Shown in pieces: positions 36,554-53,698 of a DNA stretch of 64,000 nucleotides. The stretch is taken from positions 1-64,000 of the forward strand of contig CALQIT020000009.1 of the NCBI GenBank assembly GCA_943330705.2, written 5' to 3'. How positions within the stretch are numbered: position 1 is the stretch's first letter; each line of letters starts with the position of its first letter. Origin of the DNA: Streptomyces griseus (GTDB lineage: Bacteria; Bdellovibrionota; Bdellovibrionia; Bdellovibrionales; Bdellovibrionaceae). The notes under the pieces are model-generated. The model searched no databases. It had not been told where the DNA came from and saw only the letters and a program-made list of their open reading frames with translations. Both the position numbers and the translations under genes were made by a program.

Positions 36554-37456
36554 TCAGTCAAAAATCACAATAATTTCTTGGCCAGCCTCAATTGCAATTG
36601 GAGGAGGCTGATTGTGGATATTCGTCATGGTATCATTGGCCATTTCTAGAGCCGCGCGGCTTGCTCCATTGAGGAGAGCATTTTTTGCCGTTGGACTTGC
36701 CACCGTCTGCGTACCAACCGCTGTTTTATCCTGAAGAACTTCTGCCATTCCACCTACAAAATTAAGGCCGACGGCCGCCCCATATTTCATGGCATATCTG
36801 GAAAATTGAGGACCCTTAAGGCCTGCCGTTTTATCTTCAGCATCAACGGCTTGAGCCTGGACTGTTTCAGTACTGCCGTCTCCATGAACAATTGAAGAAA
36901 ATCTAATAAATAGACGATCTTCCGTTGATTGCCCCTGACCGACCAGGGTTTCGCCGGCCTTGATAAAAGTTTCTCCGCGAATTTGTAGGGACTCAAGAGT
37001 TTCGGCTCTAATAAAACCATTTGAAGCTCCAGTTATGAGCCGAGCCTTCACCTGACTGCCTGGCGGAATTTTGCCGGCCTGTTTTCGATCAATCTTTTGC
37101 GAGCCTGGCAATTTTATTGAAATTTTGGAAGTCCTCTTTTTGCCTTTCTCCTTAAGTTGGTTACTTTCTTGCTCAGCTGAATAGCCTTCAATGCTTACTT
37201 GTTGACTAGCTTTTGCACCGACTTCCGAGGCCTCCGGCGGCGTGATCCCGTCGCTTGGACCTTCAGCTCTATCAGGAGTTTTTATCCACAGGACTGTTCC
37301 AAGTAAAAGGCAGGTTGCGATGATACAGATCTTAATCGTACGATTTGAGGGGCGATTTTTGGGTTTTTGAAAACCAAATCGGCTATCAATTTTTGGTTCA
37401 TAGACGATTTCGACCTGATTATTTTCGTTTTGCACTCTGGTTTCCCGGTTTGACAA
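36554..37456 (-). CDS. TrbI/VirB10-type secretion-channel protein
   Basis: A 300-residue core-complex protein with one N-terminal membrane helix (ICIIATCLLLGTVLWI), a linker, and a C-terminal beta-barrel domain (IKLPGSQKIDRKQAGKIPPGSQVKARLITG... and PPPIAIEAGQEIIVIFD). VirB10 spans from inner to outer membrane and gates the channel. Start at TTG 37456 overlaps the previous gene by 38 bases; a GTG at 37435 is an alternative. It is shorter than many VirB10 proteins. Confidence 0.82.
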   Translation of the reverse strand: MSNRETRVQNENNQVEIVYEPKIDSRFGFQKPKNRPSNRTIKICIIATCLLLGTVLWIKTPDRAEGPSDGITPPEASEVGAKASQQVSIEGYSAEQESNQLKEKGKKRTSKISIKLPGSQKIDRKQAGKIPPGSQVKARLITGASNGFIRAETLESLQIRGETFIKAGETLVGQGQSTEDRLFIRFSSIVHGDGSTETVQAQAVDAEDKTAGLKGPQFSRYAMKYGAAVGLNFVGGMAEVLQDKTAVGTQTVASPTAKNALLNGASRAALEMANDTMTNIHNQPPPIAIEAGQEIIVIFD

Positions 37457-37799
37457 GGTCAGTTTCGCAGTCTTTTATAAAATAGAGGCTCGCGGCATTT
37501 GTAGTCGAGGTGATTAGATCGAGAACAAATCTACGCCCCTGAAGATAAACGAAAAGATTGGATCTTGAGTTCAAAGTCATCGGCGAAATGACAAGGTCAC
37601 TTCGAACGTAGTCGATTGAAAAAGTACTTTTCGTTCCTAAAAACACTTTTTCCGGCTCTGTCGGAAATCCAAGAACAGATCCCCTGGGGGAAATATAGGC
37701 CGACGCGACACTTTTCTCGCAAAGCTTAATAGTTTTCACATTTTCAGCATAAATCTTTGGTACGAGAGACAAGAATAGAAGAACGAATTTTCCCATCAT
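37419..37799 (-). CDS. short TraK/VirB9-like outer-membrane channel component
   Basis: A 126-residue exported protein (signal peptide MMGKFVLLFLSLVPKIYA). The remaining part has the N-terminal VirB9/TraK pattern (PEKVFLGTKSTFSIDYVRSDLVISPM...NLFVYLQGRRFVLDL). The normal C-terminal half, which binds VirB7 and the barrel, is not present, so it is either a shortened relative or a different channel protein. ATGA overlap with the preceding TraE-like gene and a 38-bp overlap with trbI place it in the T4SS operon. Confidence 0.55.
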   Translation of the reverse strand: MMGKFVLLFLSLVPKIYAENVKTIKLCEKSVASAYISPRGSVLGFPTEPEKVFLGTKSTFSIDYVRSDLVISPMTLNSRSNLFVYLQGRRFVLDLITSTTNAASLYFIKDCETDLVKPGNQSAKRK

Positions 37800-38335
37800 T
37801 TTTTATCTTCCTTTTCCTCAATTTGAGAAACTGAGCTGACGATGAGACCATAAGGATTCCCATCAGTTCTATTACTCTGTTGAATGGCTACTTTGAGATG
37901 TAAAGGCAGAGCGGATTTTATTTTTCCAATGGAAACTAAACGATCGGCAAAAATATGAATATCCTTATCATCGAACTTGAATTCAGAAATTATCAACTTT
38001 TGAGCCATTTGCCGGGCCTTCAGGGTTGCAAGTTCTCTTTCACGGGAAATTGTTTCCTCAATGGCAAGAAATCCATCTTTTATATATCCATTGGTATCGA
38101 AGCGCATAGGGAGGGCTTCATTCAAAAACCCAATAATTTCATCCTGAGTTGGATTTCCAGATTTTGTGACAGCCGTCCGCGAATAGCAGCCTCGATCAAT
38201 AACAAGAGGATCTTTCATCGCAAGTCCCGCGATGACTGATAGTTGAAAAATAGATATAATGCCTAAAAGAACGGTGGCAATTTTCAAAGTCACATTTTGT
38301 GCGGCGGTTTTAGCCCATGCTGTTGAAAATCTCAT
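37796..38335 (-). CDS. TraE/VirB8-like inner membrane protein
   Basis: A 179-residue protein with one N-terminal membrane helix (ATVLLGIISIFQLSVIAGLAM) and a periplasmic domain, matching the TraE/VirB8 layout. VirB8 nucleates the secretion channel. Sequence similarity is limited and the call rests largely on topology and position between TrbL-like and TraK-like genes. Start ATG 38335 has AAGGAATAA upstream. Confidence 0.6.
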   Translation of the reverse strand: MRFSTAWAKTAAQNVTLKIATVLLGIISIFQLSVIAGLAMKDPLVIDRGCYSRTAVTKSGNPTQDEIIGFLNEALPMRFDTNGYIKDGFLAIEETISRERELATLKARQMAQKLIISEFKFDDKDIHIFADRLVSIGKIKSALPLHLKVAIQQSNRTDGNPYGLIVSSVSQIEEKEDKK

Positions 38336-38337
38336 TG

Positions 38338-39321
38338 TTATTCCTTACTAATTGGTTTTTTTGGTCCTGAAATTGGCGTGTTCGTTTGCGATTGATCACT
38401 CTGCTGTGCCTTAAAGCTTCGCAAAACCTTGTTACCAACTATTTTTGCATTGGACCTCGAGCTGCTATACGCTTTCGAGGCCACTGCCCCTGTTTTTTTG
38501 AGAGTCCAGGCTCCAGCTTTTTTTGCGCCGGCGCTTGAAAGCCCGGCCAAAGCTGCTGGACTTAGAAACCCAGCCGACAATCCAACCGCGGCCAGGCCTG
38601 CAGTTTGCGAAGCAATGCCGGATAGTGATCCTGATATCAAGCTTCGAACGACCAGCGGAGTTAATACTATAGAAAATGCCAGCATCATCGTTAGAGCCAG
38701 AAGGGTGATGAAATTTCCATGACCAGAGTTTTTAAAATTATTGAGGGCTGTGCTCCACAGAAGGGTGCCAAGAACAGCCCAGACAATCTTCCATGCCGCA
38801 ATTTCAAAAAGTGTTCGAAATAGCCCGGAGGTCATGGCCGCAGTCTGCGGTAAGACATAGAATGCAATTAAAAGTGGAGAAAATACATAAAGCAGTATTA
38901 GGCAGTAGACGATTGCAGCATTGAAAAAATAAACCGTAAGGTAAAGGATCAGGTAGGCTGCATAAGAAACAACAGATAAAAGAGTATCACCAATAGAAGT
39001 CCAAGACCATGAATGCTCTTTGAGAGCAGCACCTGCACTTTCCAAAACATGACGATAGCTGTTGAGATCTCCTATTCTCTCAGCAATGCTGTCGGCCACA
39101 GCGGCGACTGCGTTGGATATCTCGGGGTAGGCGGCAAGCAATACTGCTGCAACCAAAGCTCGTCCAATGAGCTGCGAAAATGCAGGAACACCGCCAATCG
39201 GCATTTTAAAGTATTCGATTAAAACACCAATTAAAATTAAAATGGTCATCAGTATATAAAAAATAGAGACGAAAAATGAGTGAAGGGTCTTTGCTTCAGC
39301 CGAGATCCAAGACATATCCAT
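38338..39321 (-). CDS. TrbL/VirB6-type polytopic membrane protein
   Basis: A 327-residue inner-membrane protein with at least five to six helices (for example ILMTILILIGVLIEYF, VVSYAAYLILYLTVYFFNAAI, MMLAFSIVLTPLVV), preceded by a soluble start and ended by a Lys/Ser-rich tail. This is the VirB6/TrbL architecture, the translocation pore component. Start ATG 39321 overlaps the stop of trbJ. Confidence 0.78.
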   Translation of the reverse strand: MDMSWISAEAKTLHSFFVSIFYILMTILILIGVLIEYFKMPIGGVPAFSQLIGRALVAAVLLAAYPEISNAVAAVADSIAERIGDLNSYRHVLESAGAALKEHSWSWTSIGDTLLSVVSYAAYLILYLTVYFFNAAIVYCLILLYVFSPLLIAFYVLPQTAAMTSGLFRTLFEIAAWKIVWAVLGTLLWSTALNNFKNSGHGNFITLLALTMMLAFSIVLTPLVVRSLISGSLSGIASQTAGLAAVGLSAGFLSPAALAGLSSAGAKKAGAWTLKKTGAVASKAYSSSRSNAKIVGNKVLRSFKAQQSDQSQTNTPISGPKKPISKE

Positions 39322-40007
39322 TATTCGAACCTCGGGAGTTCAAATTTTGGGGACTGTGCGGCCAGGGCATTAGTGAGCTTTTCAGTTCCATCCACCATTT
39401 GCCTCGTCCGTTCCTTATCTTTTCGATTTTGTAAGGCCAGCGTTTGGGCCTGCAACTTAAGACCTGTGGCTTGTGTACGAAGCATCTCATTTTGAAGGTT
39501 TAGCATGACTCCCAAAGACTGGGCCGTCAATTTGGCGGCGCCACCTGGTGAGGTCTGATGACTTTGGACTTTTATAAGCTCGCCGATTTCATCAATCGTC
39601 TTCGTATATTTGTAGACGGAATTATTGTGTGCAACCGCTTCTGCCACACTTTGATCTGTATCGTTTTGAACTTTTAGATCTCTGGATTCAATTGCAACGC
39701 CATAAATGGTTTCAAGCTTACTCAGGGCCTCCGAGACCTTTTGCCAATCTCTGTAAAGGCCTGGGTCTGAGTTTGGACTGATGGTACGGATAAGATTTAG
39801 CGAGTCATTGATGCCGCGATTGATGTCTTGAAGTAAATTGAGGCTGTCCTTGCCATTGTCGAGAAGATTTTTAAGCTGTATCAACTGTTGGACGGCATTG
39901 GCCAAAATCTGCGCTAGGACGACAGTTTCTTCACCAAACATACTCGCTTTTGCTGAGGGAGGACATAAAAGCAGGGAGCTCAACATCAAAATCTTAATTC
40001 TTTTCAT
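39321..40007 (-). CDS. TrbJ/VirB5-type exported protein
   Basis: About 228 residues with a signal peptide (MKRIKILMLSSLLLCPPSAKAS). The mature part is helical and coiled-coil rich, containing the TrbJ pattern VVLAQILANAVQQLIQLKNLLDNGKD. VirB5/TrbJ sits at the pilus tip or in the periplasm and helps pilus assembly. The ATG at 40007 overlaps the end of virB4. Confidence 0.8.
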   Translation of the reverse strand: MKRIKILMLSSLLLCPPSAKASMFGEETVVLAQILANAVQQLIQLKNLLDNGKDSLNLLQDINRGINDSLNLIRTISPNSDPGLYRDWQKVSEALSKLETIYGVAIESRDLKVQNDTDQSVAEAVAHNNSVYKYTKTIDEIGELIKVQSHQTSPGGAAKLTAQSLGVMLNLQNEMLRTQATGLKLQAQTLALQNRKDKERTRQMVDGTEKLTNALAAQSPKFELPRFE

Positions 40008-42420
40008 TTTTTCTTCTTTCAAACGCAGAAATGCCATAAGGATACTTTTCTGCCAGGAATTTTAAGGCTTCCAGCTGCGACAACTCAGATTGGTCCCGGC
40101 GAACTCTTTCGATCATCGAAAGATCCCTTGGGTCGGTAGTGGCAATCCATAATTCTAAAGGTGTCGGTTCAATCACTGCGACGGTATGCCGCTCTGATCC
40201 AGCGATCAGAAAAGCCTCTGAGTATTGACCTTTTTTTTGGTGCAAAGACTGAATGAGAGAGACCTCATTGTCATTGAGTCCCAAAGCTTCTTTCATCTTC
40301 GAGAAATCACTTTGGTTTTGCATAAGGACCCATTTTACCGGGCAGTTGGGTAAAAGAGCCGAAGAAATTTTTGAACTTAAAAAGTCATTGAGATCTTGGC
40401 TGATTGCGATGGCGGAAGCATAATACTTTCGGAAGGTCCGGAATACCTCTTCCATAAATCCAAGACCCGCTTCATCTTTCAATAGCTTCCAGCACTCATC
40501 AAAAACAAGAAATTTCATTTGAGAGCGATCTTTTTGAACCTCACGCCAAACCAAGTCAGTAATAATATAAAGGCAGATTCCTTGAAGGTCCGGATAATTT
40601 TCAAGACCCTTCAAATCAAAAGCGATAATATCATTTTGAAGCTCTACGGTCGTTTGCCGATCAATGAATTTCCCATACGGAGTATCACCGCACCAAGGGT
40701 TTAAAATTTTTCCATAGATTTGAATTTCTGGACTTGGATGCGTAAGTAAAATCTCTTTCAAATCGGAAAGTTTTGGGACCTTTGCTGTCTGATATGTTTT
40801 CTGAATTGCGGCTTCAATTTCAGCTCGGGCTAACCTTGGTAACCGGTCGGCACCCTCTTCTTTTGTCATTAGCTCCACGAGACCCAATAGAAATTTGACC
40901 TTGTGGGAGGACGGCGTCGTTTCGCCTGGAAGTAAATCAAAGGGGTTGACTGAAAGTGCATCATTGACACCCAGTTCGACATATTGGCCCCCTAGGTTTT
41001 CGCAAAGTTTCTTATAAGAACCGCCGATGTCCACAAAGAAGACCTTCGGATTTTCCTTAAGCATTTGCAGAAGCAAAATATTCGTCATAAAGGACTTACC
41101 TGATCCAGAGCCACCACTAACCAGCTGATTTGCCGAACTTAGCGATCCATCAAACGGATTAAAACTCAAGAGGCTTCCTTGTCGAGATTTAAGCAGAATA
41201 CTTGGGCGTTCATGACCGGGCCAAGGCCCATAAAGTGGGATGAGGTCACATAGATTTGAGGTTTTGACTTTTTTGATTCGTTCTTTGCATCGGGCATTGG
41301 GAAGAGCTGCTTGAGAAAAGATATCGAATGCCGCTAGAGTCTCGACCATTGCCTCCGCACCGCCAGGCTCACGAAATTTTGCCAGCGTCAGATCAACTTG
41401 ATTTTCAAGCTCCTCTTCATTCTTACTTTGCAATAGAGCGGTAACCGAAACATGAAAAACCTTCTGTCCCTGCGCAATCATTTGTTCTAAAAGAGTTTCC
41501 AGGTCTTGAAATTTAGCCGTGCTCTCAATATCAGAGACCCCTGTTTTCTTGCCGACGGCCATTGAATAGGCAATTCGACGTTGAGTCTGCAGGCTTTCAA
41601 TTTCCTTCATTTGGTCAGGACAGTGAACTGTCACAAGCAGACGAGATTTGAACGGAAGATCGCGCAGTGAGGCGGCCATACAGGAATAAGTCTGATCCGG
41701 AAGGGCTTTTAAAGATAATACGCGAAAATGAGTTTCTCCAATGGCAAACCCACTGAGGGATACTCCAACATCTGAAAATAATAGACTTTGCCGAACCTCT
41801 TCGGGATCGTAAGTTTTAAATGCCACTCTTCGGGATGGATTCCATTGATGATACAAAATTTTTGCGATTTCATCGGAGGCGAGGGCGCGTGTTTGAATTC
41901 CAAGACCTAGTAGGCCATTCGCAACATTCTCCTGCAAACGCTCGGTAATCTTGATTTCCCTCAGCAATCTTTCATCGGAAATTGATTGAAACAATTTCTC
42001 CTTCGAAAAAAGTCTAGGTTTTTCTAAAAGATTTTGCGCGAGTGGCCGCCGCACAAACACTCTAAGGCCATGTCTTGGAAGCCGTCCCTCTTGATCCTCA
42101 GCTCTTAAGGCCTCCGATCGAAAATTACTTAGAGCTTTCGCTGTCTCATTCTTTGAATGTTCAGACAATTTTAAGTGACCTTGAATAATCTGGTCATTTC
42201 CTGGCTCAATATCTTGGACAAACTGAATGTCTGTTTTTGCCGGTAGGCTATTTAAAAATTGTCCTACTTGGCCTGAGAATTCATTGATCCGTTCATCGCT
42301 TAGGCAACTCAGGTCAACTGGCACGCAGTCGATACCAAACCCCAAAGATCCATCTGAAAATATAATATAGTCGCCTTCAAATCCCCATATTTGGAGTTGA
42401 TCGGCTAGTACATCGCTCAT
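39994..42420 (-). CDS. VirB4/TraC conjugation ATPase
   Basis: The 808-residue motor ATPase of the secretion channel. The N-terminal half carries the TraC/VirB4 domain. The ATPase half has Walker A SGGSGSGKSFMTN (about 437) with VFFVDIGGSYKKL, Walker B FLVFDECWKLL, and downstream motifs AIAISQDLNDF. It powers pilus assembly and substrate transfer. ATGA overlap with the gene before it. It is the most reliable marker that this is a type IV secretion system. Confidence 0.95.
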   Translation of the reverse strand: MSDVLADQLQIWGFEGDYIIFSDGSLGFGIDCVPVDLSCLSDERINEFSGQVGQFLNSLPAKTDIQFVQDIEPGNDQIIQGHLKLSEHSKNETAKALSNFRSEALRAEDQEGRLPRHGLRVFVRRPLAQNLLEKPRLFSKEKLFQSISDERLLREIKITERLQENVANGLLGLGIQTRALASDEIAKILYHQWNPSRRVAFKTYDPEEVRQSLLFSDVGVSLSGFAIGETHFRVLSLKALPDQTYSCMAASLRDLPFKSRLLVTVHCPDQMKEIESLQTQRRIAYSMAVGKKTGVSDIESTAKFQDLETLLEQMIAQGQKVFHVSVTALLQSKNEEELENQVDLTLAKFREPGGAEAMVETLAAFDIFSQAALPNARCKERIKKVKTSNLCDLIPLYGPWPGHERPSILLKSRQGSLLSFNPFDGSLSSANQLVSGGSGSGKSFMTNILLLQMLKENPKVFFVDIGGSYKKLCENLGGQYVELGVNDALSVNPFDLLPGETTPSSHKVKFLLGLVELMTKEEGADRLPRLARAEIEAAIQKTYQTAKVPKLSDLKEILLTHPSPEIQIYGKILNPWCGDTPYGKFIDRQTTVELQNDIIAFDLKGLENYPDLQGICLYIITDLVWREVQKDRSQMKFLVFDECWKLLKDEAGLGFMEEVFRTFRKYYASAIAISQDLNDFLSSKISSALLPNCPVKWVLMQNQSDFSKMKEALGLNDNEVSLIQSLHQKKGQYSEAFLIAGSERHTVAVIEPTPLELWIATTDPRDLSMIERVRRDQSELSQLEALKFLAEKYPYGISAFERRKNEKN

Positions 42421-42734
42421 ACATTTATCTTTCGATTTGGAGGAAGGGCATCTATCGAGGGATTAGCGAAGGCGGACAAATATTTAGCTCTCATATGAAA
42501 TTTGGCGAGATGAACAAGATAATTGTCGGGCTTTCCGCGTTTTCCCACTCTCAAGATCAGGGCTATAAATAGAATAGGAAGCCAAACAAGAAAAAGCTTA
42601 TGATTTGTCTGACCAAATAGAAAATTTAAAATCGACAATAGTAAAAAAATGGCGAGCACATCTGGGACCTCAAAGCCAAGGATGAGAAGCTTCTTTTCTA
42701 GACTTTGACTTGTGGGTTCAGAGCGAAGAGACAT
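42417..42734 (-). CDS. VirB3/TraL-like small membrane protein
   Basis: A 105-residue protein with two membrane helices (VLAIFLLLSILNFLFG and LFLVWLPILFIALILRVG) and a soluble C-terminal tail. This is the TraL/VirB3 size and topology, and its place directly before virB4 is the conserved order. It helps pilus assembly. GGGAAG precedes the ATG, and its stop overlaps the virB4 start. Confidence 0.7.
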   Translation of the reverse strand: MSLRSEPTSQSLEKKLLILGFEVPDVLAIFLLLSILNFLFGQTNHKLFLVWLPILFIALILRVGKRGKPDNYLVHLAKFHMRAKYLSAFANPSIDALPPNRKINV

Positions 42735-42788
42735 ATGGACTTCCCGTTGAAGATTTAAGAGGAGACTTTTGATAATCCGAGGAGTTGG

Positions 42789-43073
42789 TTAGTTTACAAG
42801 ACCGCGCACAAAGGAAATAATGCTAGGCGCTCCAAAACCGACACAAGCTCCAATTATTGCTAGCCATAAGTGAGACCGAGCATTGGGATTTCCAGTGAAG
42901 AACGAGAATGCAGAAGCAACAAGGCCCAGGACAGCGGCCAGGGGTAAGATTACGTTGATTAATTTTGATTGAATGGCACCGAGGGTTGACTCGACACTAC
43001 AGTAACCGACAAGGGGCACCAGCATGACTGACAATGCGATAAGCGCGAAAACTGCTGATCTAGACATTTTCAT
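42789..43073 (-). CDS. VirB2/TrbC-type pilin
   Basis: A 94-residue prepilin: a signal peptide ending VGYCS, then two hydrophobic helices (NVILPLAAVLGLVASAFSFF and SHLWLAIIGACVGFGAPSIISFV) joined by a short polar loop (TGNPNARS), as in TrbC/VirB2. The ATG at 43073 is chosen because AAAGGAAG sits just upstream; the open frame extends further without support. It is the first gene of the leftward T4SS operon. Confidence 0.8.
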   Translation of the reverse strand: MKMSRSAVFALIALSVMLVPLVGYCSVESTLGAIQSKLINVILPLAAVLGLVASAFSFFTGNPNARSHLWLAIIGACVGFGAPSIISFVRGLVN

Positions 43074-43109
43074 AGAACTTCCTTTGTGATATTTTGTTGA
43101 GATACTGAA

Positions 43110-43126
43110 TTTGGCAAGATGCCAAA
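43110..43126. promoter_or_regulatory. palindrome upstream of the pilin gene, candidate operator
   Basis: Perfect 7-bp arms, TTTGGCA-AGA-TGCCAAA, 37 bp before the pilin start; a related half site (ATGGCAAGAT) lies about 30 bp further upstream. It sits where a regulator of the secretion operon would bind. No binding protein is identified. Confidence 0.45.
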
Positions 43127-43251
43127 AATGACTGCGCGCTGTTGGGGTCAAAAAAATGGCAAGATTCGGTAAAAAATATATGTCAAAAAGTTCGTCAAAC
43201 GTTGAGGGTCGTAAGGCGTGAGGTTATTCACACTGAAAGAAGGAAATCCCA

Positions 43252-45178: not shown

Positions 45179-45195
45179 TTGGCCCCGGCTTTGCT
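45179..45195 (+). promoter_or_regulatory. sigma-54 (-24/-12) promoter of the YcaO operon
   Basis: TTGGCCCCGGCTTTGCT fits the sigma-54 consensus YTGGCACGRNNNTTGCW at 10 of the 11 strongly expected positions counted loosely: GG at -24 and GC at -12 are present with the correct 10-base spacing. Start of transcription is expected near 45206. Only a few bases separate it from the ribosome site at 45208. Confidence 0.75.
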
Positions 45196-45220
45196 CTTTA
45201 GCGAGTTGGAAGGAGCGTTC

Positions 45221-46231
45221 ATGCAATTCACAAGTGATCTCGCACAGGAAATTCTACATGCAAAAGATATTTCTTTGGCTCCTATTAATAAAATTATCGA
45301 GATTTCCAGTATCACAAGGACATCTCGTCCCGAGGGCTTTCGCCTGGCTCAACATAGTTTCAACGCCATTGCAAATTGTGACGGACTCGAAGTTTTAGGC
45401 TGCGGCGAAGACGCCCTTGACGAGAGCTTGGCTCAGATGAAGGCGGTGTCAGAGGCGATCGAGCGAGCGGTAATGAAAGTGATCGCTAGGAAATGTGAAA
45501 AAAAGATTTCTAGTAACGGTTGGGCTGCTCATACGTCGCTAGAGAAAGCTGCTACGGCCGCAATTTTTGAGTTGGCCGAACGGGATTCCGCCCTTATGCA
45601 TTGGTTTACCAAAACCCCGATGCGTCAGATTCACAATGACATTCCAGTGCCAAATAAATTCATTAAAGAACTCCGACAGACAGAATTTCCTGAGCTCACC
45701 CTGTTGATATCAGTCGAGTTCTCAGGTCCAGTTGTCACAGCATTGCTTTCAAATGACAAAGGCCGCGCAATTTCAGGACACTCCTCCGGTCCCGACTTGG
45801 AAGAGGCCATTAGGTCAGCAGTGATAGAGGCCTGTCGAGCAGCACATCATTTTCAAAGATTTTCTTACTATGACGGAACGAGAGCACTTTTGAAAGGGAA
45901 AGCACCTGCAGAGACTCAGCCAGGAATGCATTCGCTTATGTATGCCTATCATGAACCTCTTCCGCTTTGGATTCGGGGATGTAAAATTGACTACCAGGCA
46001 GCTTCTAGTCTCTGGCTGCAGGGAACAAATTCAATCGTCAAAGTAATGGAGGAATCAAAATTTTCTGCTTATACAACAGAAAAGCACGTCGTCGTCCGAG
46101 CCGAAAATGAAAAACTCCAAAGCATTTTTTGGGGCAGTACAGAAACGGCCCTCGAACAGCAGGTAGTAAATTGGGGTCGACTGAGCCCTTACACATCACA
46201 TATTAACCTCCGCCCTCATATGGTCGGTTGA
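45221..46231 (+). CDS. stand-alone YcaO-family protein
   Basis: A 336-residue YcaO-domain enzyme. The metal-ATP motifs are visible in order: GCGEDALDESLAQMKAVSEA then IER (about 60-82), SSNGWAAH (97-104), ELAERD (117-122), and later GHSSGPDLEEAIRSAVIEAC (about 183-202). YcaO enzymes use ATP to activate a peptide backbone amide and form azolines, thioamides or macroamidines. Partner genes E1-like, ocin-ThiF or TfuA are absent, and the C-terminal PxPxP of azoline-forming members is missing. ATG 45221 is fixed by GGAAGGAG five bases upstream; the open frame upstream contains the promoter. First gene of the operon. Confidence 0.88.
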   Translation: MQFTSDLAQEILHAKDISLAPINKIIEISSITRTSRPEGFRLAQHSFNAIANCDGLEVLGCGEDALDESLAQMKAVSEAIERAVMKVIARKCEKKISSNGWAAHTSLEKAATAAIFELAERDSALMHWFTKTPMRQIHNDIPVPNKFIKELRQTEFPELTLLISVEFSGPVVTALLSNDKGRAISGHSSGPDLEEAIRSAVIEACRAAHHFQRFSYYDGTRALLKGKAPAETQPGMHSLMYAYHEPLPLWIRGCKIDYQAASSLWLQGTNSIVKVMEESKFSAYTTEKHVVVRAENEKLQSIFWGSTETALEQQVVNWGRLSPYTSHINLRPHMVG

Positions 46232-46242
46232 AAGGAATGAAA

Positions 46243-46560
46243 ATGACTAAAACCCCAGAGATCAACTTTGTAGTATTGGCAGCTAGCCTCGCTGGCGTGC
46301 TTGCCATTGGATCGTCGGCAATGGCTGATGACTCTTTAGTTCATATACACAAATTGCGGGCGCTTGAGTCCATTCCGCCAGGTCAACGAATACTAGCGCG
46401 AGAACAAATTAATGTATTCCTAGAAAAACATCCCAATATAGAAGTTAGTAAATACCAGTTTGCGGTAGCAAAAAATGGAGATATTTATGTGTTGGACAAG
46501 AACCAAGATAATCAACATTCTTCTCGCGATCCTGTTGCTCAGCCTAGCTGTATTGAGTGA
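46243..46560 (+). CDS. small exported protein, candidate substrate of the YcaO enzyme
   Basis: 105 residues. A hydrophobic signal-like stretch (VVLAASLAGVLAIGSSAMA) is followed by an acidic, helical section and a C-terminus rich in Ser, Asp and Gln, ending QPSCIE. It lies twelve bases after the YcaO stop and overlaps the next gene by 74 bases in another frame. A small peptide gene beside a YcaO gene may be the precursor, but the signal peptide makes this uncertain. ATG 46243 is preferred (AAAGGA six bases upstream). Confidence 0.6.
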   Translation: MTKTPEINFVVLAASLAGVLAIGSSAMADDSLVHIHKLRALESIPPGQRILAREQINVFLEKHPNIEVSKYQFAVAKNGDIYVLDKNQDNQHSSRDPVAQPSCIE

Positions 46561-48010
46561 GAATAATCTTATAGGACTCAATTTAGCGGAAGCAAAGGAA
46601 GCCAAGATGATACCAGAGCCGAAGATCATTCGCACTTATATGTCCCTGCCAAAGCAGATCGACCCAGCTCATATTTTAACGATGGCCGATCTTGATCTTT
46701 CCTTTGCTCTCGCAAGTACGCTGGTAGAATGGGATGACTCCCGGCAGCCTGTAGGTGCTCTCAGTGATAAATGGGACTTTCCCAAATCCAATGTCATTCG
46801 ATTCCATATCCGAGGCGGAGTGAAATGGTCCAATGGAGATCAGATCTTCGCCAAGGAGGTATTGGCGTCGTTTGAAAGAGCCAAAAAGAAATATCCCGAT
46901 GAACTGCAATCGCTTTTCGATATTATCGTTCAGATCCGATGCCCCAATGATGAGACGATTGAGTTTGAAACTAAAAACAGCATCGGCGAGAGTAATATCC
47001 TAAGGAAATTAACCGAGCCCATGTATGGTCTAGTTGATACGGAAAAAGGCGGTAATATCAGCCTAAGTCGTTCGTCTGGCCCCTTTATTGTCAACCAGCT
47101 GACATCTTCAGAGTTAACTCTTACAAAAAATAAAAACTGGTTTAAAGGCAGTGACAAGCTAGCTGATCGTATCGAACTAAGGCCACCTTCTCCAGATGCA
47201 GACCTTGTCACGCAATTTGCCAAAGATTCTTGGGCAAATATGGTCTCATCAAACTCACTTCAGTCAGCTCAATTGTTAAATGAATTCAAAGCTCAAAATT
47301 TCGAGATATGGCAAAGAAGCCACGATAAAGTATTTTTCTTATCCCCCAGTCCAAATTTTATTAAAGATTTTGGTACCAGAGCCCTCAAATCTATTGGGCA
47401 ACAGATTCAGGTTAAAAAAATTCTGCCAAATATTGGCGGATATACGGTGACGGATCAATTTTTTCCCAACGGATATGTCCTTCATAACTTGATCTTTAAA
47501 AATGAATTGGAAAAAGAAGTCTCAAAATTCGGACGAGCCTTAACGGTTCTACTACCAGCAACCCCGTCGGGAATCCTAGTAAAAGAAGATTTACCGAAAG
47601 AGATCGAGCGTATCACTGGAAGAAAACCAAATGTGATCTTAGTAAAACCAAATGAGGTCGCGGAGGCCAAAGCAAAAGGAAATTACGACATCTTAGCCGT
47701 CAATGTTGCTGTTGATGATCCAAATTTTGAAGGGGCAATGACATTTTTCTTTGCCGGCAATGCGCCCTTGATCCCCTCTGGGGCGGGAGAGAACAACTTT
47801 ATTCAGAAGATTTCCGCCGTAAAGTCATTGAAGAAAGATGAAGAAAAAATTGTTTCTATGCGATCAGTTATTTCAAAGGCGACTCAGGAGGGCTTTGTGG
47901 CACCGCTCTTTCACTTTTCCAGTCTGACCTTGGCAAAAAATGGAATTGACCTATCGCTGGTGCCGTTAACTAAAGAAACAATTCCTTTTTCACAAATTCG
48001 TTTTAAATAG
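46487..48010 (+). CDS. peptide-type extracellular solute-binding protein (SBP family 5) without permease
   Basis: A 507-residue periplasmic-binding protein with a hydrophobic N-terminus (IINILLAILLLSLAVLSEN) that could be a signal peptide or anchor. The body matches the OppA/DppA family: IDPAHILTMADLDLSFALASTLVEWD, WKWSNGD-like HIRGGVKWSNGDQIFAKEV, and the long second lobe. SBPs of this family bind peptides, nickel or sugars. No ABC permease or ATPase genes are nearby. It is immediately followed by a sensor kinase, so it probably presents a ligand to the sensor. Start at 46487 overlaps the previous gene. Confidence 0.85.
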   Translation: MCWTRTKIINILLAILLLSLAVLSENNLIGLNLAEAKEAKMIPEPKIIRTYMSLPKQIDPAHILTMADLDLSFALASTLVEWDDSRQPVGALSDKWDFPKSNVIRFHIRGGVKWSNGDQIFAKEVLASFERAKKKYPDELQSLFDIIVQIRCPNDETIEFETKNSIGESNILRKLTEPMYGLVDTEKGGNISLSRSSGPFIVNQLTSSELTLTKNKNWFKGSDKLADRIELRPPSPDADLVTQFAKDSWANMVSSNSLQSAQLLNEFKAQNFEIWQRSHDKVFFLSPSPNFIKDFGTRALKSIGQQIQVKKILPNIGGYTVTDQFFPNGYVLHNLIFKNELEKEVSKFGRALTVLLPATPSGILVKEDLPKEIERITGRKPNVILVKPNEVAEAKAKGNYDILAVNVAVDDPNFEGAMTFFFAGNAPLIPSGAGENNFIQKISAVKSLKKDEEKIVSMRSVISKATQEGFVAPLFHFSSLTLAKNGIDLSLVPLTKETIPFSQIRFK

Positions 48011-48018
48011 GAAGACTC

Positions 48019-49431
48019 ATGAAGCAAACGAAGCCGTCTTTATCAATGCTGTTTCAGTCCAAAGTTCGCGCCTGGACTGCTGCTTCATTTGTGGTGGCAG
48101 TCCTATTTTCATTTTTGATTCTGTATTGGATTTCAATGCGTGAAAGTGAAAAGAGAGCTCAAGAAATAGCACAGACGACTGCCGAAGCATTTAGATCGGC
48201 AATCCTGAGTGGCGATATTTTGGGAGCAGAAACTCAAGCCAAGAAGTCATTTCAACTATCAGAAACTGAGGACATTGTCATTCTTGATGCGGAATTGAAT
48301 CCGATGATTTCAGGAAGGATCTGGAGCAAAACGGCCTCATGTCCTCGTATCGATGAACTATGTACTGATTTTTTTTCAAAAAAGATCAGCTTGGCAGTTC
48401 CTATCTATTTTGACAACACGAAGACCAACATACATGGATATGTGTTTGCTTCTGTTCGAGAAAGAATCAATTGGTCTTATATGATATCAATAACTGCGGC
48501 AGTGTTAGCTGCACTCCTGATTCTGTCCCTTGGACTTATTGCAAGTATGTCTTCGGCCTTTGGAACAATTTCTAACGATCTTACCTTGTGGGCCGAGAAA
48601 CTGAAAAATGATCCCAAGAAATTAAGTTTTTCAGGGGGAGCTCCGTTTCGGGAACTCGACCCCATCCAGCTGGCACTTTCAAACTTAAGGACAGAAATTA
48701 TTAGGCTCGAAAAAGAAGCCAGGAGTGAGGGAAAACTCATGGTTCTTCGAGGGATTGCTCATGACGTTATGACTCCAGTAAGTCAGCTCAAAAAAATGCT
48801 CGGGGTCTTTAAAATTCAGATTAAGAACGAAGGTAAGCCCACTGACGAGGCCATTTTCAAATTCGATCAATATCTTAAGAAAATTGAGCGGATCGCTGCC
48901 CAAGTCCTGGTGTTGAAGGAAAATCAAATTGGAAGGGACACCCAAGAGGAGATCACCAATTTATTTGAAGCCACGAATGCGATTGCTTGTGATTTACGCG
49001 AAGAAGAAGTTTTTCAGACAGGAAAACTGACCCTGGAAGTTCAGGGATTCTCCGATAGAACGGCAAAAGTTTCGAAGCTAGACTTGGAAAGAGTTCTTTC
49101 AAACCTTATTCGGAATGCCGCCTTTGCTTCAAATGAAGGACAAAAAATTTTGGTTTCAGTGTCGGATTCTGAGGGCGTTACAGATATTTTAATTAAAGAC
49201 TTCGGTGCAGGTATTCTTCCGGAAAATCAGGAGAGTATTTTTGAAGTTGATTTTTCAACCCGGCCCTCCGTGGGCACAGGTCTTGGCCTTCCTATTGTAA
49301 AAGCAATATGTGATAAATACGGAGCCAAAGTGTTATTTTCTTCAACTGTTAACCAAGGTACCGAGTTTCGAGTGTCAATTCCTTCAACCAGAGGATTTTC
49401 ATATGAAGTACAAAATTCTGCTTGTCGATGA
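48019..49431 (+). CDS. sensor histidine kinase
   Basis: A 470-residue membrane kinase. Two membrane helices (about 17-39 and 154-177) flank a periplasmic sensor region of 115 residues. The cytoplasmic part has a dimerisation helix with His248 in GIAHDVMTPVSQLKK and an HATPase domain with LIRNAAFAS (N box), DFGAGI (G1) and GTGLGLPIVKAI (G2). It should autophosphorylate in response to the solute-binding protein and pass phosphate to the following regulator, whose gene starts inside its last 29 bases. Confidence 0.93.
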   Translation: MKQTKPSLSMLFQSKVRAWTAASFVVAVLFSFLILYWISMRESEKRAQEIAQTTAEAFRSAILSGDILGAETQAKKSFQLSETEDIVILDAELNPMISGRIWSKTASCPRIDELCTDFFSKKISLAVPIYFDNTKTNIHGYVFASVRERINWSYMISITAAVLAALLILSLGLIASMSSAFGTISNDLTLWAEKLKNDPKKLSFSGGAPFRELDPIQLALSNLRTEIIRLEKEARSEGKLMVLRGIAHDVMTPVSQLKKMLGVFKIQIKNEGKPTDEAIFKFDQYLKKIERIAAQVLVLKENQIGRDTQEEITNLFEATNAIACDLREEEVFQTGKLTLEVQGFSDRTAKVSKLDLERVLSNLIRNAAFASNEGQKILVSVSDSEGVTDILIKDFGAGILPENQESIFEVDFSTRPSVGTGLGLPIVKAICDKYGAKVLFSSTVNQGTEFRVSIPSTRGFSYEVQNSACR

Positions 49432-50809
49432 TGATAAAGACAATCTGGAGTCGACGAAGATGCTACTTGATCTTCACGGATACGATGTCAAAACGGTCGG
49501 TAGCGGCAAGCAGGCCATTGATTTGGCAAAAAAGAGTCATCAATTTGAGTTTGCTTTGATTTTGATGGACTATCATATGCCAGAAATGAATGGAGCGGCA
49601 GTCATCTCCGAGATTAAAAAGCTGAAGCCTCGGCAGCAAATTTTGTCATACACCATGGATGATTCTAAGGACACAGCGGTTGAGAACTTTAGAGCTGGCG
49701 CCGTCGATTTTCTGGAGAAAAGTGCTGACAATGAAGTTTTACTTGAGAAGGTGAAGCTTTATTGCGACAAATTTGAGGCCGTTTATAGAACAATTTCGTC
49801 AGATTCCTTAGGGGAGCAGGAAGTCTTGAAACGCAATGCTGAGTTCGGATTTGTAGCTCGCTCTAGCTCCATTGAAAAAATTGTAAAAGAAATCGAAATG
49901 TATGCCTCGGTCAACAGCACGGTTCTGATTCAGGGAGAGACCGGAAGCGGCAAGGAACTCATCGCACAGGCCATTCATAAAAAAGGCCCCAGAGCACAAC
50001 ATAGATTTGTCGCGGTCAACTGCGCCGCCATTCCCCAAGGACTTGTCGAGTCAACTCTCTTTGGTCATGTAAAAGGATCATTTACAGGTGCCGTCAATGA
50101 TCAGGACGGAAAATTTAAATTGGCTAGCGGGGGTACAATTTTCTTAGATGAAATCGGCGAGCTAGCGTCGGATGTTCAGGCGAAACTTCTTCGCGTTCTT
50201 CAGGAGCGTACGGTTGATCCGGTGGGTGCAAGGTCCGGCGTTAAGGTCGATGTCCGCGTGATTGCGGCCACCCACAGGAATTTGGAAAAAATGGTTAAGG
50301 AGGGGAAATTTCGCGAGGACTTGTTATATCGGCTCAACACCCTTGTTATTAAGAACCCGCCTCTTCGCGAACGTCCAGAAGACATTGAGCCACTCGTTGA
50401 TTTTTTTTCCAAAAAAGTCAGTGAGAAGATTGGAGTCCAGAAAAGGTTTCAGCGGGCGGTGCTTAAGCATTTAGAAAGATATCCTTGGCCTGGAAATATT
50501 CGAGAGCTTGAAAACATGGTGGAGGGCCATCTGCTGAGATCCGAGGACGGGATTGTGATGGTTGAGCAATTGGATCCAAAATTCTTTGCCAAATCTGAGC
50601 CGACCAATTCCTTAAGGACGTTAAAGGAATTTGAAGAAAATCTGGAGGCCATGAAGCTTGGTTATGTACTTGAAGTCATTGGTTCATCTGTAAGCAAAGC
50701 TGAGGCTGCAAAGAAACTCGATATCTCTCCGACAAACCTGCAGTATGTTCTTTCAAAACGAAACAAGGTTAAAAATGTGGACACTGGCGAGGTGGAGTCA
50801 TTGCCATAA
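49403..50809 (+). CDS. sigma-54-dependent response regulator (NtrC family)
   Basis: 468 residues: a receiver (acidic D9-D11, phospho-acceptor D56 in LMDYHMPEMNG), a AAA+ domain (Walker A GETGSGKE 178-185, GSFTGA 225-230 in place of GAFTGA, FLDEIGEL 247-254), and a Fis-type HTH at the C-terminus (SKAEAAKKLDISPTNLQYVLSKR). It activates sigma-54 RNA polymerase. The GSFTGA loop is a one-residue variant of the contact motif. ATG 49403 is chosen (AGAGGA upstream); the upstream frame belongs to the kinase gene. Last gene of the operon before a hairpin. Confidence 0.95.
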   Translation: MKYKILLVDDDKDNLESTKMLLDLHGYDVKTVGSGKQAIDLAKKSHQFEFALILMDYHMPEMNGAAVISEIKKLKPRQQILSYTMDDSKDTAVENFRAGAVDFLEKSADNEVLLEKVKLYCDKFEAVYRTISSDSLGEQEVLKRNAEFGFVARSSSIEKIVKEIEMYASVNSTVLIQGETGSGKELIAQAIHKKGPRAQHRFVAVNCAAIPQGLVESTLFGHVKGSFTGAVNDQDGKFKLASGGTIFLDEIGELASDVQAKLLRVLQERTVDPVGARSGVKVDVRVIAATHRNLEKMVKEGKFREDLLYRLNTLVIKNPPLRERPEDIEPLVDFFSKKVSEKIGVQKRFQRAVLKHLERYPWPGNIRELENMVEGHLLRSEDGIVMVEQLDPKFFAKSEPTNSLRTLKEFEENLEAMKLGYVLEVIGSSVSKAEAAKKLDISPTNLQYVLSKRNKVKNVDTGEVESLP

Positions 50810-50928: not shown

Positions 50929-51123
50929 ATGGAATCCTTAACCTTAAAGGCATTTGTGATCCTGTTCAGAGCGATCGGTATTTTGCTGATGACTGGCGCT
51001 ATTGTTGCGGTCCTGGCGGACCTTCAAAATGACGCTCTTAACAGCCGTCGGCATGGGTTGGTCAGCATGCTGTTTGTCAATCAGCAGCTGGTTGGGAAAA
51101 CTCAGTGGTTGCCAAAAAGATGA
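50929..51123 (+). CDS. small one-helix membrane protein
   Basis: A 64-residue protein: MESLTLKAFVILFRAIGILL then MTGAIVAVLADLQND, one hydrophobic helix, then a polar tail ending WLPKR. AAGGAG lies six bases before the ATG. Position just after the YcaO operon terminator, on the same strand, suggests a role in the same system (leaderless peptide, immunity or helper), but nothing in the sequence proves it. Confidence 0.5.
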   Translation: MESLTLKAFVILFRAIGILLMTGAIVAVLADLQNDALNSRRHGLVSMLFVNQQLVGKTQWLPKR

Positions 51124-51338: not shown

Positions 51339-51498
51339 ATTTAATTGTCGGATGAGTTTTTATCCATGGACAGGGAGAATTGAAAGTTGCAGCTAGACTA
51401 AAATCATGGGCTAGCCGCAAGAATCGCTAATGGCAGTGACAAAAACGGTAATTCCATTCAAACTTATAGCGATTCCAACAACCCAAATAGGAGGTATC

Positions 51499-51792
51499 AT
51501 GAAATTATCTTTAGGTAAAAAATCCAGGGCACTTTTACTCTTTGCTGTAAGCGGCTTATCGTCAACCCTGGCAGTAGTCTCTGATGCAAATGCGGCAGGC
51601 AGCCACATATGTGCATGCGCGTATCCAGGAAACTCTTTTCCAATCTGCATGGAACAAGCGGACGGCAGCAGTTGCAGTGCTGTGGATAAATGCACTCTCA
51701 CGGGGCAAGCGCTTAGCGGTTGTTCGGAACAGTCCACAAGTGCTGGATGCCATGGTTTTTTCAGTTCGTCAGACATCACATGCAACCCGTAG
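51499..51792 (+). CDS. exported cysteine-rich peptide
   Basis: A 97-residue precursor-like protein. AGGAGGT lies directly upstream of the ATG, a very strong ribosome site. A Sec signal peptide (KSRALLLFAVSGLSSTLAVV then SDANA) is followed by a mature part of about 64 residues with eight cysteines and many Ser, Thr and Gly (ICACAYPG...ICMEQADGSSCSAVDKCTLTG...GCHGFFSSSDITCNP). Likely disulfide-bonded and secreted. It could also be a target of the nearby YcaO, since Cys/Ser/Thr are the residues that enzyme modifies. No family recognised. Confidence 0.75.
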   Translation: MKLSLGKKSRALLLFAVSGLSSTLAVVSDANAAGSHICACAYPGNSFPICMEQADGSSCSAVDKCTLTGQALSGCSEQSTSAGCHGFFSSSDITCNP

Positions 51793-51815: not shown

Positions 51816-51844
51816 AACAAGAGGTAGCACTCCTACCTCTTGTT
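51816..51844. terminator. strong bidirectional terminator
   Basis: A perfect 12-bp stem AACAAGAGGTAG/CTACCTCTTGTT with a 5-base loop, followed by T-rich DNA on both strands. It lies between the cysteine-rich peptide gene and the convergent 621-residue gene and overlaps that gene's stop codon. Confidence 0.9.
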
Positions 51845-53698
51845 TTTAATCTGAAATCCTAAGCCCTCTCCTTGAGAGCGCAACCCCTTCGCAATTTGAC
51901 ACATCTGAGGCCAGTATTTTAATAGGCGCGCATAAAGAAACAACTGTCTCTTTAAATGATCAAGAGCCAAGCCTTCAGTCATTTTCTCAACCGGTTCTTG
52001 GTACACCCGATATGACTTGCTTTGCAAAAGATTACGATTTGCCATGAGCTGCTCTTGCACGAATCTTTTGAAAAATGAGGGCGCTTTCTCTTCGAGAGCC
52101 GCTTCGAGAGTCTGTATTGACTCGACAGTTCTTCGCCGGCCGGTCCGCAACAAGATATCATTTAGCTCGTGGTCCGGATACTGAGAAACAGAATTTAAAT
52201 TCTCAGAAAAAATGGATATCTTAGAAATGGTATCTTGACCCGGTAAAAATGCTGACGAAGATCTTTTCAAAATTTGAAAGATAATTTCCTCCATATAGAC
52301 CAGAGAAGTCGTTCTAAGCGTTGTCGTTGTATTGCGCGTTTCCATTGGGGCATGAACGAGCGCCCATGGTAATTGGGCGAAAGAGGCTTGGCTGCAACAT
52401 GCCGACAGCATTCGCCCAAAGAGGGCATCCTCATTTCTGTGAATAGGAAAAAATGGTGGAAGAAGCTCTCGGTGATCTAAGCCAAAGAAGGTGGACATCA
52501 TCCCAGTGGCCGGATGTATCGTAAGCTCTTTCACCGATTTCAGTACATTTCGGCTCGACCTCATTTCATTGAAATGATTTTCGGAGCTAAGTAGGCGCGC
52601 TCGCCCTTCTCCAGTTAACCCCCAGATGGCCGAGTTCACTGCAGATCCGCTGTCGCCAACTAAGGAGTTCATGGAAACCGTCACTCTCGAGTCGCCCGCA
52701 GAAATTGAGCTCGACCATCGTAAACCAAGGTCATCAAAATTCACAGAGTCACCATGCCTCAGATGATTTTGAATAACCGCACTGACTTGCTTGCCAAGCA
52801 CTTCTTCATGAAGACCCAAAACATCCCTATCTTCAAATTCGATACTATCGACCGCAGACTCCTGATCCGGGAAATATCTGATCTCATGCAAGTTGCCTTG
52901 GACATCAACTTTAAGTGAGTTCCGACTTTGGGGACACTTGCCTGTACGGCAAATTACATCGTCGTCCGCACTGAAGGCGAGCTTCCCCACTGTGTCTAAC
53001 AGAAAAGCGTTTCGGTTGGCACCGTAGGTTTTCGCCCCCTCCGTCCCAAAAAGGCAAAAATCAACGATATCTGAAGGGATTCCTGCCAAAACAATTTTTT
53101 CAGCAAACTTCCTTTTTTCCTGCCTTCCCACGTATTTAATCGAGGCCCGATTGCAGTCGATATTTGCATAAATCTGATTCGGGATGTCAGACTTTTGCGA
53201 ATCGTCATAAACCACAAACTCTACACTTTTATTGTGCTTTTGTGCGTTAGCTACAAAACTCTGAAGCCCCCTGATAAGGCTTTGGCTGCGGCTAAGAGTT
53301 GGAATGCCAACGACGCTAATTTTACCAGACTGCGGATCTGACTCATTTTGAAGTGACCCGACGAATTCGGACTGTTCTTCTAGTAATCCTTTCTTAAATA
53401 AAATTTTAAGAACGTCAGAAACCACTCCGCATACTGGATTTTTCCGGATGTGAAAATCGGAACTGTTTTTTAAGTAAAAGCTCATTATGTCCAAAATGAA
53501 AAGGTGTCTCTCAACACCTCTCAATTTCGACAAATAATCTTGAGTATGGGACTCGGCCGATCTGAAGTACTGACAATTTACCAGAAAGTCGGCCAGGCGA
53601 TTCGGGAGAAACTCCATTAACTGTGAGTGCCTTACAGAAATCAATTTTTCATTCCTACTGGCTGGTTCCTGATAAATATCTTTACATCTGTACAACAT
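51833..53698 (-). CDS. large soluble protein with glycosyltransferase-like (GT-A) motifs
   Basis: 621 residues. The middle contains ISVVGIPTLSRSQSLIRGLQ (like the opening strand of GT2 enzymes), VEFVVYDDSQKS and GANRNAFLLDTVGKLAFSADDDVICR, whose DDD is a likely nucleotide-sugar metal site. N-terminal 120 residues and C-terminal 250 are unassigned. I infer a nucleotide-sugar glycosyltransferase or related transferase. It is convergent with the cysteine-rich peptide gene and next to the YcaO operon, consistent with peptide tailoring. Family assignment is tentative. Confidence 0.5.
   Translation of the reverse strand: MLYRCKDIYQEPASRNEKLISVRHSQLMEFLPNRLADFLVNCQYFRSAESHTQDYLSKLRGVERHLFILDIMSFYLKNSSDFHIRKNPVCGVVSDVLKILFKKGLLEEQSEFVGSLQNESDPQSGKISVVGIPTLSRSQSLIRGLQSFVANAQKHNKSVEFVVYDDSQKSDIPNQIYANIDCNRASIKYVGRQEKRKFAEKIVLAGIPSDIVDFCLFGTEGAKTYGANRNAFLLDTVGKLAFSADDDVICRTGKCPQSRNSLKVDVQGNLHEIRYFPDQESAVDSIEFEDRDVLGLHEEVLGKQVSAVIQNHLRHGDSVNFDDLGLRWSSSISAGDSRVTVSMNSLVGDSGSAVNSAIWGLTGEGRARLLSSENHFNEMRSSRNVLKSVKELTIHPATGMMSTFFGLDHRELLPPFFPIHRNEDALFGRMLSACCSQASFAQLPWALVHAPMETRNTTTTLRTTSLVYMEEIIFQILKRSSSAFLPGQDTISKISIFSENLNSVSQYPDHELNDILLRTGRRRTVESIQTLEAALEEKAPSFFKRFVQEQLMANRNLLQSKSYRVYQEPVEKMTEGLALDHLKRQLFLYARLLKYWPQMCQIAKGLRSQGEGLGFQIKNKR

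Follow-up and report, generated by a model that had tools for sequence, protein, structure and literature searches.

An orphan gene for a putative exported eight-cysteine protein downstream of a conserved YcaO operon in a relative of Bdellovibrio

Does a small gene for a Cys-rich, apparently exported protein belong to the peptide-modifying YcaO operon that precedes it, or does it stand on its own? The question arises in a stretch of 64,000 nt of DNA, hereafter called the window, in which the sequence-only reading had placed the gene beside YcaO and a glycosyltransferase-like gene and had proposed a bioactive or signalling peptide. The gene and its expression signals are as follows.

51499..51792, + strand: eight-cysteine gene for an orphan 97-aa predicted exported protein, with a strong Shine-Dalgarno sequence, a Sec-type signal (about residues 1-32), eight Cys and no homologue
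51489..51498, + strand: ribosome-binding site region of the eight-cysteine gene (AGGAGGT and spacer), AATAGGAGGTATC-ATG, near-perfect
51816..51844, + strand: strong intrinsic terminator of the eight-cysteine gene, a 12-bp stem and then a T-run, 24 nt past the stop codon

The frame runs from an ATG start to a TAG stop and encodes 97 aa, namely MKLSLGKKSRALLLFAVSGLSSTLAVVSDANA followed by AGSHICACAYPG and ending in DITCNP. In a rule-based check, MKLSLGKKSRALLLFAVSGLSSTLAVVSDANA showed the features of a Sec-type signal with a positive n-region, a hydrophobic core and ANA-A; its classification as a cleavable signal follows from rules only, without SignalP. All eight Cys fall within the last 64 residues with the spacing C-1-C-9-C-8-C-5-C-9-C-8-C-10-C. 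These 64 residues also contain about 12 Ser and 4 Thr, so that a Cys/Ser/Thr-rich core is present, and the mature part is high in Cys, Ser, Thr and Gly. The strong ribosome site, the signal peptide and the eight cysteines in about 64 residues claimed earlier for positions 51499-51792 were thus confirmed, and together they support a small exported Cys-rich protein.

In the whole window, this frame alone combines a strict Shine-Dalgarno sequence and an ATG start with a length of 80 aa or more and an N-terminus that resembles a signal. In 6.4 Mb of DNA simulated with a third-order Markov model, one frame with these four features was found (about 0.01 per 64 kb), and none of this kind with at least six Cys. 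A spurious frame or a non-functional remnant would nevertheless account for the atypical codon use (a codon log-odds of -13, lower than the 5th percentile for chunks of 97 codons from resident genes), for the antisense frame, which is longer and has a better codon score, and for the lack of a homologue in any search. Against this explanation, which we regard as unlikely, a Shine-Dalgarno sequence, a signal peptide and a terminator are jointly very improbable by chance, and the antisense frame starts with GTG and has a ribosome site that, as read from the sequence, is badly placed. The codon use points either to a gene that is young or of foreign origin or, less probably, to a spurious frame; we take the gene as real and compositionally odd, and as probably young or imported. 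No promoter better than chance was detected upstream of it. An AlphaFold model computed from the single sequence reached a pLDDT of 54.7, which is too poor for a fold search.

Relatives of the eight-cysteine protein were found neither in its own genome nor in 141 genomes of the order and 369 of the phylum, nor among GTDB genome contigs, viral contigs, plasmids and phages. There was no match in Pfam, NCBIfam, PDB sequences or PADLOC, and nothing rose above noise in Pfam, NCBIfam, PDB and PHROG families. The motif CxCxYPGx(3)PxC matched solely the gene itself in the 141 genomes. Since short Cys-rich queries search insensitively, “orphan” denotes here that no relative appears at these sensitivities. 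Weak matches with E 0.001-0.1 in genomes of the order and phylum were taken as chance after inspection: the one in locus L002 is an ATP synthase c subunit, and the others were rejected for stops or for cysteines that do not match. A PDB match to avidin (E 0.05) is noise, a PHROG match (E 0.011) depends in part on the signal region, and Rfam yielded nothing beyond a sub-threshold match. A relative encodes another small Cys-rich exported protein, which is unrelated and has an equally good ribosome site (L048:10775-11152), so that proteins of this kind are not exceptional in the group.

The relation to YcaO has to be judged from the genes that surround the eight-cysteine gene.

45180..45194, + strand: conserved sigma54 (-24/-12) promoter of the YcaO operon, TGGCCCCGGCTTTGC
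45218..46231, + strand: stand-alone YcaO, heading the operon (Pfam PF02624, E 5.8e-21)
46234..46560, + strand: conserved exported peptide of about 108 aa ending in AQPSCIE, candidate YcaO substrate
46475..48010, + strand: SBP_bac_5 oligopeptide-binding-like protein (E 2.1e-19)
48019..49431, + strand: sensor histidine kinase, two hydrophobic segments at the N-terminus (topology read from sequence)
49400..50809, + strand: NtrC-type sigma54 response regulator (PF00158, PF00072; start approximate, ATG after CAGAGGATTTTCAT)
50929..51123, + strand: gene for a 64-aa membrane mini-protein, placed between operon and eight-cysteine gene, conserved in genomes G001 and G063
51833..53698, - strand: 621-aa protein, convergent, with GT-A-like features (PTLSR..., SADDDVIC) and no library match

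The wording “beside YcaO” proved loose. The end of YcaO, at 46231, is 5.3 kb upstream of the eight-cysteine gene, and four operon genes and the 64-aa gene separate the two. The order of YcaO, exported peptide, SBP_bac_5 protein, histidine kinase and NtrC-type regulator recurs at ten loci, distributed over eight genomes of the order, and this genome holds the operon twice, in the window and at L038. The search for orthologues and for YcaO linkage that had been suggested as a check returned no orthologue of the eight-cysteine gene, and none of the nine other operon loci, including the second copy in the same genome, carries it. Membership in the operon, or a role as its substrate, is accordingly unsupported; the operon has a conserved exported candidate substrate and a sigma54 promoter of its own. 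The eight-cysteine protein might still be a second, accessory substrate whose Cys, Ser and Thr would be converted to azolines before export. In favour of this, its mature part resembles linear azol(in)e peptides in its high content of Cys, Ser, Thr and Gly, the same strand carries a stand-alone YcaO at the distance given, and a Sec-type signal is also found on the operon's own candidate substrate. We consider this highly improbable, as the gene is a separate unit with its own terminator and lacks a sigma54 promoter, and as its protein has no motif in common with the peptide family of the operon (A1). In addition, TfuA was not found in this genome, and the nitroreductase homologues are on other contigs.

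A different link would be regulatory, with the eight-cysteine protein as an output of the two-component circuit that is activated by the NtrC-type regulator and not modified by YcaO. On the same strand, the gene is the second one downstream of the response-regulator gene, and a sigma54-like site with one core mismatch occurs at 50994 inside the 64-aa gene. This site is, however, 490 bases away from the start codon, and it is one of 12 such sites in the window, the 250 bases upstream of the gene contain no sigma54-like site (the best has four mismatches), and the gene is not conserved with the operon; an output of the circuit therefore appears doubtful. Relatives of the 64-aa gene occur in G001 and G063 with no eight-cysteine gene after them. 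This family of membrane mini-proteins (59-64 aa) has a C-terminal NQQLVGK/S tail (L111:7884-8063, L112:7965-8144), and its genes are found near histidine-kinase genes in other genomes. As to the glycosyltransferase-like neighbour, the DDD motif of the 621-aa protein may be read in a GT-A-like context; the gene lies on the other strand in convergent orientation, matches no Pfam family and shows no YcaO link elsewhere. Its relatives are very sparse and distant (G039 and a Trichormus plasmid), no annotated YcaO was present near the plasmid relative, and an AlphaFold model (pLDDT 34) likewise fell short of what a fold search needs.

Taking these observations together, we think it fairly probable that 51499-51792 is a real, monocistronic and strain-restricted orphan gene whose product is exported by Sec, disulfide-paired and extracytoplasmic, and is no substrate of the upstream YcaO. 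The protein would cross the inner membrane via Sec, and its signal would be cut after about residue 32, between ANA and AGS. In the oxidising periplasm, the eight cysteines could then pair into up to four disulfides, yielding a compact, protease-resistant mini-protein of about 65 residues that would act outside the cytoplasm. The protein is probably stabilised by disulfides; its Cys-, Ser-, Thr- and Gly-rich mature part would also suit a heterocyclised peptide. For a strain-restricted secreted mini-protein, the most likely role is that of a secreted effector, competition or surface-protection peptide. Taken alone, it is an ordinary-looking orphan secreted mini-protein of a general kind also present elsewhere in the group. 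The analysis removes a tempting and probably wrong YcaO substrate and points to a better one, the co-encoded conserved exported peptide.

Peptide-modifying YcaO enzymes activate backbone amides adjoining Cys, Ser or Thr. The small exported proteins of the operon share a Sec-type signal, a middle part E-x-L-x-x-E-x-R ... G-V-D/N-x-x-G and a C-terminal end of P-S-C, P-T-C, F-S-C or P-S-S; given this chemistry, the conserved tail is a natural candidate for modification. A profile of the peptide family matched in the genomes with the YcaO operon and in G114, which also has YcaO, with one weak extra match in G003. YcaO itself is invariant across the ten loci at E79/E82/R83, E118/E121/R122 and E204/R207. 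G132 contains a divergent operon copy with a different short peptide. The small gene of a divergent YcaO operon (L047:9658-9876) encodes a different short peptide (...GASGASCG). The - strand of the window holds a gene set (36554-43151) that comprises, among others, a TraC/TraG-type ATPase (type IV secretion) at 39994-42420; in several genomes (L040, L041, L043-L047), relatives of this set adjoin the YcaO operon. In 7 of 10 loci, a -24/-12 site for sigma54 with no more than one mismatch was found upstream of the operon (mean of 0.06 in shuffles); together with the operon-encoded sigma54 activator, this suggests autoregulation of the operon. No description of this operon was found in the literature searched.

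We tentatively propose, at somewhat less than even chances, that the YcaO operon is a RiPP-type circuit for cell-cell (or self) signalling in Bdellovibrio relatives. The stand-alone YcaO would modify the C-terminal P-S/T-C (or P-S-S) of the Sec-exported peptide of about 100 aa, and the SBP_bac_5 protein would capture the exported peptide or its released tail. The histidine kinase would sense the captured peptide, and the NtrC-type regulator would switch the operon on again at the sigma54 promoter. The eight-cysteine protein would be a strain-specific bystander of such a circuit or its output. If confirmed, it would show signalling by a modified peptide in a Gram-negative group that has predatory bacteria among its relatives; compared with the eight-cysteine gene, the operon is the larger prize and merits a separate study.

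Small secreted disulfide-rich proteins resemble the eight-cysteine protein in the Sec-type signal, the even number of Cys and a mature part of less than 70 residues, whereas its Cys spacing was not recognised as a known pattern. With the precursors of YcaO-modified peptides (LAP/TOMM) it shares the Cys/Ser/Thr/Gly-rich C-terminal part and a YcaO in the wider neighbourhood. It differs from them in that its gene neither adjoins YcaO nor is co-conserved with it, that it has a Sec-type signal and not a typical leader, and that the YcaO is stand-alone here. The two bottromycin YcaOs act without a partner protein (PMC8442711). As in the stand-alone YcaO RiPP clusters for bottromycin and streptamidine (PMC8442711), the YcaO of the operon is unfused and co-encoded with a conserved short peptide. 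In contrast to these clusters, the eight-cysteine gene lies outside the operon, the operon's peptide carries a Sec-type signal, and a binding protein, a histidine kinase and a sigma54 activator are co-encoded with it.
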